This document shows positions 22,316 to 23,985 of a DNA stretch of 42,300 nucleotides, piece by piece (position 1 is the first letter of the stretch; each line of letters starts with the position of its first letter). The notes below the pieces were generated by a model, which saw only the letters and a program-made list of their open reading frames with translations, searched no databases and was not told the DNA's origin. Where the stretch lies: positions 1 to 42,300 of IMG/VR virus record IMGVR_UViG_3300037247_001547. One strand, written 5' to 3'. The DNA is from a virus. The translations under genes and the position numbers were made by a program.

Positions 22316-22582
22316 ATGAACGAAAACGAAGCGGCTGCACGCCTTCGCCGGGCAACCGATCCGAAGGGGCCGCCGGTATCCGGCCCAGGCTGGATGCCCG
22401 TCGGAACGGGGCGCTTAATCTTGGCGCTGTCCGTCGTTTGGTCGGCAATCATTTTGACCGGCGTTGCCATGATTATGAAAATGCCAGCGGAGACGTTCGC
22501 TTTACTCTCGCCGATTTATCTTTGGGCGGGACAGGCCTTCGAGAAATATTTTGCAACTCGGAACGGAAAACCATCAGGATAG
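22316..22582 (+). CDS. Holin-like membrane protein, 88 aa
   Basis: ATG at 22316 (AGGAGA upstream); an ATG at 22289 is a possible alternative. One clear membrane segment (LILALSVVWSAIILTGVAMIM) and a second weaker one (FALLSPIYLWAGQAF), basic C-terminus. Position after the tail fibre fits lysis. The last codons (GKPSG) are encoded by the 16-bp repeat that recurs at 23964. Confidence 0.5.
   Translation: MNENEAAARLRRATDPKGPPVSGPGWMPVGTGRLILALSVVWSAIILTGVAMIMKMPAETFALLSPIYLWAGQAFEKYFATRNGKPSG
22564..22579 (+). repeat. 16-bp direct repeat, left copy
   Basis: CGGAAAACCATCAGGA, identical to 23964-23979 and exactly 1,400 bp away. Both copies encode the C-terminal GKPSG of the gene they end, in the same frame. 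They bracket the decarboxylase-like and DUF3326-like genes. Confidence 0.85.
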
Positions 22583-22594
22583 GGGTATCGCGAT

Positions 22595-22963
22595 ATGCCA
22601 TACGGAAAAGAATTGATTTTGGATCTGCATAAGTGCAACCCGAAGAAATTCACCAGGCGGGCGCTTAAACGGTTTTTAAAAGTTCTCTGTAAGAAAATCG
22701 CAATGGAGAGATGCCAATTACATTTTTGGGATTACAAGGATTGCCCCGAGGAGCATGCGGCCGCTCCAGACCACTTGAAGGGCGTTTCGTGCGTTCAGTT
22801 CATCAGCACTAGCAACATCACGATCCATGCTTTGGACGTGCTGCAAAAGGTCTTCTTGAATATTTTTTCGTGCAAAGATTTTGATGCTGAAATCGTTTCC
22901 GCTTTTGCGGCGGAGTATTTCGAGGGCGAAGTTATTACTAAGAAAACTGTGGAAAGGGTTTAG
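22595..22963 (+). CDS. AdoMet-decarboxylase-like (SpeD family) pyruvoyl protein, 122 aa
   Basis: SpeD enzymes self-cleave before a Ser that becomes the pyruvoyl cofactor and decarboxylate S-adenosylmethionine for polyamine synthesis. Here GKELILDLHKCN opens like the family; GVSCVQFISTSNITIH carries the candidate cleavage Ser73 and His78, and FSCKD supplies Cys93. The 5- and 20-residue spacings match my recollection of T. maritima SpeD (Ser63, His68, Cys83). The Glu before the Ser is Thr, the following His is Asn, and the usual substrate-site Trp/Glu stretch is replaced, so another substrate such as an amino acid is plausible. The DUF3326-like gene begins 2 nt downstream. Confidence 0.7.
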   Translation: MPYGKELILDLHKCNPKKFTRRALKRFLKVLCKKIAMERCQLHFWDYKDCPEEHAAAPDHLKGVSCVQFISTSNITIHALDVLQKVFLNIFSCKDFDAEIVSAFAAEYFEGEVITKKTVERV

Positions 22964-22965
22964 CG

Positions 22966-23985
22966 ATGATTGGTGTACTGATAATTCCTACAGGGATCGA
23001 ATGCTTAATTGGCGGACATGCCGGAGATGCGAGTCCAGTGGCAAAGCTACTTGGCGCGTGCTGCGACAGATTAATTTTGCATCCGAACGTGGTGAATGCT
23101 TCGGACATTAACGAGATGCCGGACAACGCGCTGTACGTTGAGGGGTCGATGCTGGATCGTTTTCTTGAGGGCGACATTGAACTGAAAGAGCGGAGAAGAA
23201 ACAACGTTCTGGTAGTGGCGAATTCACCATTGACGGGGGCTACGGTGAATGCAGTTTCAGCGGCTCGTGCGACAATCGGACTGGAGGCGCGAGTGCTCGA
23301 GCTCGAGACGCCTTTAATGATGATTGCTCGAATAGAGAACGGTCAAGCGGCCGGAGATGTGCGGGGTTGTGATGGTCTTGTCAAGCAAGTCTCCGAGTAC
23401 GAGTTTGATGCTTTGGCGATCCACACGTCGATAGCGGTGGGGCGGGAAGTCGTTTTGAACTACTATCACAACGGCGGGGTGAATCCGTGGGGTGGGGTGG
23501 AAGCTTTAGCCTCTAAGATGGTGTCTGAGCGCTTGGACAAACCCGTGGCGCACGCCCCTCTTGATACGACTCCAGCCGCCGATCGGGAGCTAGATCGGAT
23601 ATACAATGAGATACTTAAGCCTGAAATCGCGGCTGAGTCGTTATCCACATCATACTTACACTGCGTGTTGAAAGGATTGCACAAGGCTCCAGTCATCGGA
23701 AACGGAATTAGCGTCGGGGACGTAGATTTTCTCGTCTCTCCTTTTGGATGTTTTGGTCGGCCACATCGCGCGTGCCTGAAGCGCGGGATTCCCATTATTA
23801 TTGTCAGGGAGAACAGCACCGTTTTAAGCGATGCAATTCCGTCTTCGGATGTGGTTATCATAGTAGGGAATTATTGGGAAGCAATTGGCGTTATCATGTC
23901 GATGAAGGCGGGAATACACCGTGGATCGGTGAGGAGACCATTTCAGTATACCGAATTGATAACCGGAAAACCATCAGGAGGGTAG
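22966..23985 (+). CDS. DUF3326 family protein, 339 aa
   Basis: Full-length by family standard. Residues 7-29 (IIPTGIECLIGGHAGD...) and 39-60 (HPNVVNASDINEMPDN, LYVEGS), then GGVNPWGGVEALASKMV, CAHAP-like VAHAPLD, DVDFLVSPFGCFGRP and NYWEAIGVIMSMKAGI, match my memory of DUF3326 proteins of cyanobacteria, plants and other bacteria; no function is established to my knowledge. Starts 2 nt after the SpeD-like stop, suggesting one pathway. Auxiliary metabolic gene candidate. C-terminal GKPSGG comes from the 16-bp repeat. Confidence 0.75.
   Translation: MIGVLIIPTGIECLIGGHAGDASPVAKLLGACCDRLILHPNVVNASDINEMPDNALYVEGSMLDRFLEGDIELKERRRNNVLVVANSPLTGATVNAVSAARATIGLEARVLELETPLMMIARIENGQAAGDVRGCDGLVKQVSEYEFDALAIHTSIAVGREVVLNYYHNGGVNPWGGVEALASKMVSERLDKPVAHAPLDTTPAADRELDRIYNEILKPEIAAESLSTSYLHCVLKGLHKAPVIGNGISVGDVDFLVSPFGCFGRPHRACLKRGIPIIIVRENSTVLSDAIPSSDVVIIVGNYWEAIGVIMSMKAGIHRGSVRRPFQYTELITGKPSGG
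23964..23979 (+). repeat. 16-bp direct repeat, right copy
   Basis: Second copy of CGGAAAACCATCAGGA. Here the trailing AGGAGGG also serves as the Shine-Dalgarno of the next gene. Confidence 0.85.

Follow-up and report, generated by a model that had tools for sequence, protein, structure and literature searches.

A SpeD-like decarboxylase gene coupled to DUF3326 in a tailed phage: a candidate mobile module for amine production

The DNA studied here, referred to below as the window, is a 42,300-bp IMG/VR record whose terminase, portal and major head proteins identify it as a tailed phage. Downstream of a tail-fibre-like gene and a small open reading frame it carries two genes, separated by only 2 nt between the stop of the first and the start of the second, which are found together with the following features:

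22564..22579 (+): left copy of a 16-nt direct repeat, within the 3' end of the gene preceding the pair
22595..22963 (+): predicted SpeD-like pyruvoyl-type decarboxylase of 122 aa, ATG start (PF02675, phrog_3125; AdoMetDC class 1b fold by comparison with 1tmi)
22727..22780 (+): clade-specific stretch, residues 45-62, from the alignment; boundaries approximate
22811..22813 (+): codon of Ser73, the predicted autocleavage and pyruvoyl residue (S63 in T. maritima), from the alignment; Ser in 80/80 sequences
22826..22828 (+): codon of His78 (H68 in T. maritima); His in 80/80
22871..22873 (+): codon of Cys93 (C83 in T. maritima); Cys in 79/80, with Phe in L086
22966..23985 (+): DUF3326 protein of 339 aa, ATG start, short form lacking the N-terminal domain (PF11805)
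23080..23115 (+): conserved DUF3326 motif HPNVVNASDINE, residues 39-50
23964..23979 (+): right copy of the 16-nt direct repeat, within the 3' end of the DUF3326 gene

Residue counts refer to an alignment of 80 sequences, comprising the window protein and 79 of its 84 listed relatives. The two repeat copies are exact, lie 1400 nt apart and bracket the pair, where 0.01 such repeats would be expected, and we read them as a local trace of gene gain. An exact flanking repeat of at least 16 nt is present in only 4 of 79 pair loci, which rules out flanking repeats as a general mechanism of mobility.

The original prediction saw here an AdoMet-decarboxylase-like enzyme followed by a full-length DUF3326 protein, and profile searches place both proteins in these families. 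The first scores 54.4 bits against Pfam AdoMet_dc (PF02675; cut-off 25) and matches the PHROGs family phrog_3125, 'S-adenosylmethionine decarboxylase'; the second reaches 241.6 bits against DUF3326 (PF11805), covering profile positions 3-336 of 337. The AF2 model of the SpeD-like protein (pLDDT 96.5) matches the AdoMet decarboxylase (AdoMetDC) of T. maritima, 1tmi, with a Foldseek E of 1.5e-7, a Z of 15.8 and an rmsd of 1.7 over 110 residues, so that the protein, as modelled, has the class 1b AdoMetDC fold; a search of solved-structure sequences with the window protein alone returned nothing credible. With the bona fide class 1b enzyme (1tmi/1tlu) it further shares the processing residues, as Ser73, His78 and Cys93 reproduce the spacing (+5, +15) of the catalytic S63, H68 and C83 described for T. 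maritima (PMC10407285). It differs from this enzyme in overall sequence, with an identity of about 17% in the structural alignment, and in the loss of the ESHxxxHTWPE-type motif, ESHLTIHTWPE of T. maritima reading TSNITIHALDV in the window protein. Retention of the Ser/His/Cys spacing and alteration of the AdoMet-site residues around it had both been anticipated from the sequence.

Because the AdoMet-type motif is absent and the score against TIGR03330, the NCBIfam equivalog for bona fide AdoMet decarboxylases, stays at 25.1 bits, below the cut-off of 75.65, AdoMet is not favoured as the substrate; very probably the enzyme acts on an amino acid other than AdoMet. That it is nevertheless a bona fide AdoMetDC for spermidine synthesis strikes us as very improbable. 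Family and fold would agree with such a role, as would the precedent of a Sinorhizobium phage enzyme that is placed in the published ornithine decarboxylase (ODC) clade and is still an AdoMetDC (PMC9992855), Sinorhizobium phage phiN3 being among the closest annotated phage matches of the window protein (27.5% identity). Against it stand the lost motif, the missed cut-off and the separate, higher-scoring SpeD (84-140 bits) that 7 of the 25 searched genomes with a SpeD pair also carry. In two phages the SpeD-like domain forms the C-terminal part of proteins of 617 and 1236 aa (L047:5467-7317 and L051:4267-7974), in which no second Pfam family exceeds its cut-off. Such fusions would suit a non-catalytic or virion-associated part; however, the catalytic Ser and His are invariant in all 80 sequences, fusions included, and the protein is a standalone one in nearly all loci, making this reading extremely improbable.

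What, then, would the enzyme decarboxylate? SpeDC proteins, found in phages and bacteria, have been described as pyruvoyl ornithine decarboxylases derived from AdoMetDC (PMC9992855, PMC10407285), and phage SpeD homologues of 117-122 aa have been reported with ornithine or arginine decarboxylase (ADC) activity (PMC9992855). The window protein agrees with SpeDC in size, in belonging to the AdoMetDC family, in its Ser/His/Cys residues and in part of a signature that, as published, includes a diagnostic Gln, Thr, Phe and Tyr (PMC10407285). The positions of these residues were inferred from two SpeDC-like sequences found by gene context, one beside spermidine synthase and canonical SpeD genes (L199) and one beside carboxyspermidine-type decarboxylase and dehydrogenase genes (L200), both context labels being read from translations. 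At the positions so inferred, the Gln (Q68; 73/80 relatives) and the Thr (T72; 72/80) are present, the Phe, taken to be at the position that follows the catalytic His, is absent (A79; Phe in 0/80), and the Tyr is replaced by F87 (Tyr in 54/80 relatives, Phe in 23/80). The window protein is further set apart from SpeDC by its DUF3326 partner and by the stretch of residues 45-62, with a Trp45 that is invariant (80/80) and an insertion of about 12 residues relative to canonical SpeD and of 6 relative to SpeDC-like proteins. In a FastTree phylogeny of 105 sequences, canonical SpeD stands apart from a group made up of 86 pair-type proteins and the two SpeDC-like sequences, the node that joins pair type and SpeDC-like being weakly supported (0.435); by tree and motif together, SpeDC-like genes are the nearest cellular relatives. 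Judged by sequence, the pair-type proteins are a SpeDC-like but distinct group. The enzyme probably decarboxylates an ornithine-like amino acid. With Ala79 and Phe87, and hence only two of the four diagnostic residues, ornithine as the substrate cannot be read off the sequence, and we give ornithine itself slightly less than an even chance.

The DUF3326 partner is modelled as an alpha/beta protein (AF2, pLDDT 91.1). Foldseek returned no match under an E of 0.001, its list being rich in transcarbamylases and HAD-like phosphatases with TM-scores mostly of 0.15-0.3 and rmsd values of 12-23; a VIA search gave a best Z of 9.1, for lumazine synthase at partial coverage, and a solved-structure sequence search with the DUF3326 profile gave chance matches only. 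We draw no function from any of these matches. PHROGs has no family for the window protein. The phage-type proteins are mostly of the short form; the long cellular proteins are extended at the N-terminus by a further domain of about 86 aa, for which a profile was built from 57/57 of them. Among viral loci of the first search this domain is confined to L054, L057, L058 and L059/L082 (one contig), and it recurs in some viral loci found later; a 77-aa open reading frame beside DUF3326 in L216, considered as a split-off version, was not matched by the profile. The family is found in cyanobacteria, plants, scattered bacteria and archaea, and many uncultivated viruses. Its occurrence is sporadic: Synechococcus elongatus gave the only match among 14 control genomes, and four phylum samples held 5/199, 2/395, 3/384 and 3/395 genomes with DUF3326, two of the samples overlapping and the centre genomes, chosen for having DUF3326, being counted in. 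PMC4284462 and PMC13294368, in the parts that deal with DUF3326, name the family and give no function. The cyanobacterial relative belongs to the same family, PF11805, but its setting differs: the Synechocystis gene sits with fed3 and DUF650, the relevant part of the source naming no decarboxylase (PMC4284462), whereas the window gene sits with one.

That the pairing of the SpeD-like gene with DUF3326 is real, and more than chance, is evident from its recurrence. Loci were gathered in viral scans with DUF3326 and SpeD queries and in a genome scan, of which the best 80 of 158 confirmed loci were used, so that the cellular counts are those of loci with the greatest similarity to the phage type; the scans used conserved peptides and favour the NASDINE subfamily. 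For counting, loci were joined into clusters at 95% identity, leaving out L001 and L166-L214 (short-flank copies, reference loci and others outside the survey). A SpeD-like gene lies within 2.3 kb of DUF3326 in 54 of 67 viral clusters and near it in 30 of the 81 cellular clusters; the co-occurrence elsewhere on which the original prediction depended is therefore found in viruses and cells alike. In an earlier set of 51 viral clusters the SpeD-like gene is upstream in 47 and downstream in 1, with a gap of 7 to 30 nt in most; in L004 an additional 179-aa open reading frame, read as HNH-type, separates the two genes. Substantiating a lasting association, the distances among SpeD-like proteins correlate with those among their DUF3326 partners, in cells with r 0.66 (0/999 permutations) and in viruses with r 0.27 (9/999). 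As no DUF3326 match to the window protein or to a long-form protein was found in 50,697 annotated phage records, the linkage rests on IMG/VR and genome contigs, which are mostly metagenome-assembled and may contain binning errors; plasmids likewise gave no DUF3326 match with the long-form protein.

Where the SpeD-like gene is missing, another decarboxylase often takes its place. The remaining 13 viral clusters comprise seven with a phosphatidylserine-decarboxylase (PSD)-like gene, two with an ornithine-cyclodeaminase (OCD)-like gene and four with none of these. In the cellular set, 29 clusters carry a CANSDC-like PLP decarboxylase, one an Orn/Lys/Arg decarboxylase and 21 none; 13 of these 21 form one short-form group (L090-L106) with mostly Planctomycetes and Verrucomicrobia titles, and L141 is counted as 'none', yet by eye shows the C-terminus of a PLP enzyme at its contig edge. 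Pfam confirmed the PSD-like genes (L058 with 92.8 bits; L229, L230, L231, L233, L235 and L237 with 39.9 to 68.8 bits), the OCD genes in L224 and L278, OKR_DC_1 in L218 (170.8 bits) and the PLP enzyme in L162. Two cellular PLP members match carboxynorspermidine decarboxylase (NspC; PDB 9eaf) with E 5.8e-73 and 9e-77, although at 270 bits the enzyme stays under the NCBIfam nspC cut-off of 409; this substitute in the same operon slot resembles NspC, but is a predicted decarboxylase only and differs from the SpeD-like protein in fold and cofactor. Six further loci came from the phylum samples: two with PLP enzymes, on contigs already in the survey, one with an OKR enzyme and three with no nearby decarboxylase, two of which have, by eye, a different DUF3326 motif, HPNVVNGVxLN. 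A quick DUF3326 tree was built from 130 rows, after removal of 22 duplicate or overlapping loci and of short or weak matches; on it the switch between SpeD and PLP took place at least 8 times in cells, and there are 10 changes over all rows when the PSD and OKR cases are included.

Altogether, decarboxylases of four families (AdoMetDC; PSD; PLP of the Orn/DAP/Arg type; PLP of the Orn/Lys/Arg type) replace one another next to DUF3326; this speaks for DUF3326 acting on the small-molecule route that the decarboxylase serves, which we regard as very likely. On the simplest view, DUF3326 requires a partner able to decarboxylate amino acids, whatever fold supplies it. Orn/Lys/Arg decarboxylases have an established activity on basic amino acids, and their activity would overlap with that of SpeDC on ornithine-type substrates. 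The OCD cases are consistent with a route centred on ornithine or a similar amino acid, and would also agree with a DUF3326 step that precedes decarboxylation.

Some neighbouring genes deserve mention in their own right. In large phages, a second AdoMet_dc-family gene lies near one PSD-like/DUF3326 set (L229:1069-1479, minus strand) and an arginase-family gene beside another (L237:5420-6367, minus strand), and a SET-domain gene (L218:5889-6635, minus strand) adjoins the pair of DUF3326 and Orn/Lys/Arg decarboxylase. The annotation of Microcystis phage MaAM05 (L198; MW495066.1) lists consecutive genes for two SpeD homologues, SpeE and an agmatinase, which together make up a near-complete spermidine route.

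A plainer reading would make the phage gene an auxiliary ODC that boosts phage putrescine, with DUF3326 as a common neighbour that has an unrelated job. It can draw on the published phage homologues with ODC or ADC activity, which are 117-122 aa long, and on viral contigs that have a SpeD-like gene and no DUF3326 (L069, L071-L073, L076-L078, L085). The linkage, however, is regular and spans several decarboxylase families, and the two members co-vary in distance in cells and viruses, so that we consider this reading rather improbable. Of the contigs just listed, the three read in translation (L069, L072 and L077) carry clamp-loader-like genes, L077 also a DNA-polymerase-like gene, which is suggestive of archaeal viruses.

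Is the module then part of a defence system? Context labels were assigned for 76 of the 80 cellular loci, and in 12 of the 80 a PtuA-PtuB (Septu) pair lies directly upstream, 11 with PtuA and 12 with PtuB (the L135 contig begins inside PtuB), followed by a SpeD-like gene in seven and a PLP enzyme in five. PADLOC matched the representatives L086 and L129 strongly (PtuA E 2.7e-56, PtuB E 2e-59), remaining members being assigned by BLAST cluster; CxYC is kept in 12/12 PtuB and Walker A in 8/11 PtuA, with two of the rest truncated where the contig ends. The titles of these loci span an archaeon (Thermoplasmatota) and several bacterial phyla (among them Neomarinimicrobiota, Planctomycetota, Zixiibacteriota, Bacteroidetes and proteobacterial groups). 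The ATPase-HNH pair is shared with Septu and its retron variant, Septu type II, but the added module is here decarboxylase plus DUF3326 and not the reverse transcriptase given as the added Septu gene in the PADLOC paper (PMC8565338). In such a setting the pair could make, sense or remove a small molecule that controls the Septu nuclease in cells, and phages, having only the pair, could use it to escape this control or turn it to their own ends. Agreeing with this are the Septu operons themselves, with their strong matches and wide range, and the sporadic occurrence of DUF3326. Yet Septu is missing from most cellular loci, its proteins do not reach the NCBIfam PtuA/PtuB cut-offs, and cellular PtuA/PtuB profiles found no match among the window's open reading frames and none in viral loci save a weak 28-bit PtuB in L037. 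The Septu context therefore bears on the module and not directly on the window, and we judge a defence or counter-defence role unlikely; for the signalling function that the original prediction offered beside a metabolic one, these cellular operons are a hint only.

Other cellular contexts point towards amine chemistry. A glutathionylspermidine-synthase-like (GSP_synth) gene precedes the pair in seven cellular loci (one SpeD, six PLP; match of 464.6 bits), and a glutamine-synthetase-like gene (290.5 bits) is found in four; such amidoligase neighbours fit an amine product. Operons with PspA, a GSP-synthetase-like ligase and polyamine genes are among those described in PMC11237479, and the cellular loci likewise have PspA, DUF2170 and GSP_synth beside polyamine-type enzymes, but add, relative to the operons described there, a PLP or SpeD-like enzyme and DUF3326. 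Seven loci (L111, L123, L124, L134, L149, L150, L163; five SpeD, two PLP) have a membrane protein of about 400 aa directly upstream of the pair; of three members scanned, two had no Pfam family and one a borderline VIT1 match (28.0 of 28.1 bits). The decarboxylase exchange is thus seen within each of three gene settings: Septu, GSP_synth and this membrane-protein family. The polyamine link suggested from the start gains indirect support from the relatedness to SpeDC, from the exchange with CANSDC-like and Orn/Lys/Arg decarboxylases and from the GSP_synth, glutamine-synthetase-like and arginase neighbours.

Less frequent neighbours include cyclase-like proteins next to DUF3326 loci (L115:1270-2658, L136:3873-5339, L165:9091-9498, L164:5057-7699), with a Guanylate_cyc match that exceeds the cut-off in L164 and narrowly misses it in L115, and with TPRs in both; L136 and L165 were assigned to the group of L115 from BLAST alone. 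A related protein of about 275 aa lies beside two Septu-decarboxylase-DUF3326 operons (L129:7942-8760, L145:3445-4272), with no Pfam match in L129, the member checked. A 4-HFC-P synthase of the methanofuran pathway (MfnB-like) lies near three pair loci (L129:3270-4040, minus strand; L120:3892-4449; L160:8645-8983, minus strand; Pfam for L129 only).

On balance, we lean, if only somewhat, towards the decarboxylase and DUF3326 forming a mobile two-enzyme module that makes an amine, whose activity, substrate, order of steps and benefit to the phage we infer as follows. Autocleavage of the SpeD-like protein at Ser73 is predicted to yield the pyruvoyl group, and the enzyme would then decarboxylate not AdoMet but an alpha-amino acid of the ornithine or arginine type, or a compound closely derived from one. 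DUF3326 would be an enzyme on the same short route, making the amino acid to be decarboxylated or converting the resulting amine. The phage would have acquired the pair as a cassette, the most likely benefit being a higher level of a polyamine-like amine during infection. Counting against an amine-making module are the partnerless DUF3326 clusters, the three of six phylum-sample loci with no nearby decarboxylase, the SpeD-like genes without DUF3326, the incomplete SpeDC signature, the weakly supported node that joins the pair type to SpeDC, the DUF3326 fold with its lack of a clear functional match, and OCD, which is not a decarboxylase. A more far-reaching version, which we hold to be improbable, would have DUF3326 and its exchangeable decarboxylase make a new amine metabolite that in cells switches the Septu nuclease or is attached by the amidoligases, and whose signal phages flood, mimic or defuse.

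A polyamine-independent role of SpeD was reportedly described in a paper of 2019. SpeD-derived phage decarboxylases have already been published (PMC9992855, PMC10407285), but in the literature covered (open-access articles, few subscription papers, no preprints) neither the partnership with DUF3326 nor the exchange of decarboxylases nor the link to Septu was found to be described, and the term DUF3326 is absent from the JBC paper on SpeDC. The pair widens the known set of phage decarboxylases and leads us to propose a decarboxylase-linked form of Septu. For the DUF3326 family, to which the sources cited above assign no function, its travelling with several unrelated families of amino-acid decarboxylases would point to a place on a defined small-molecule route, as a step that can be put to the test.
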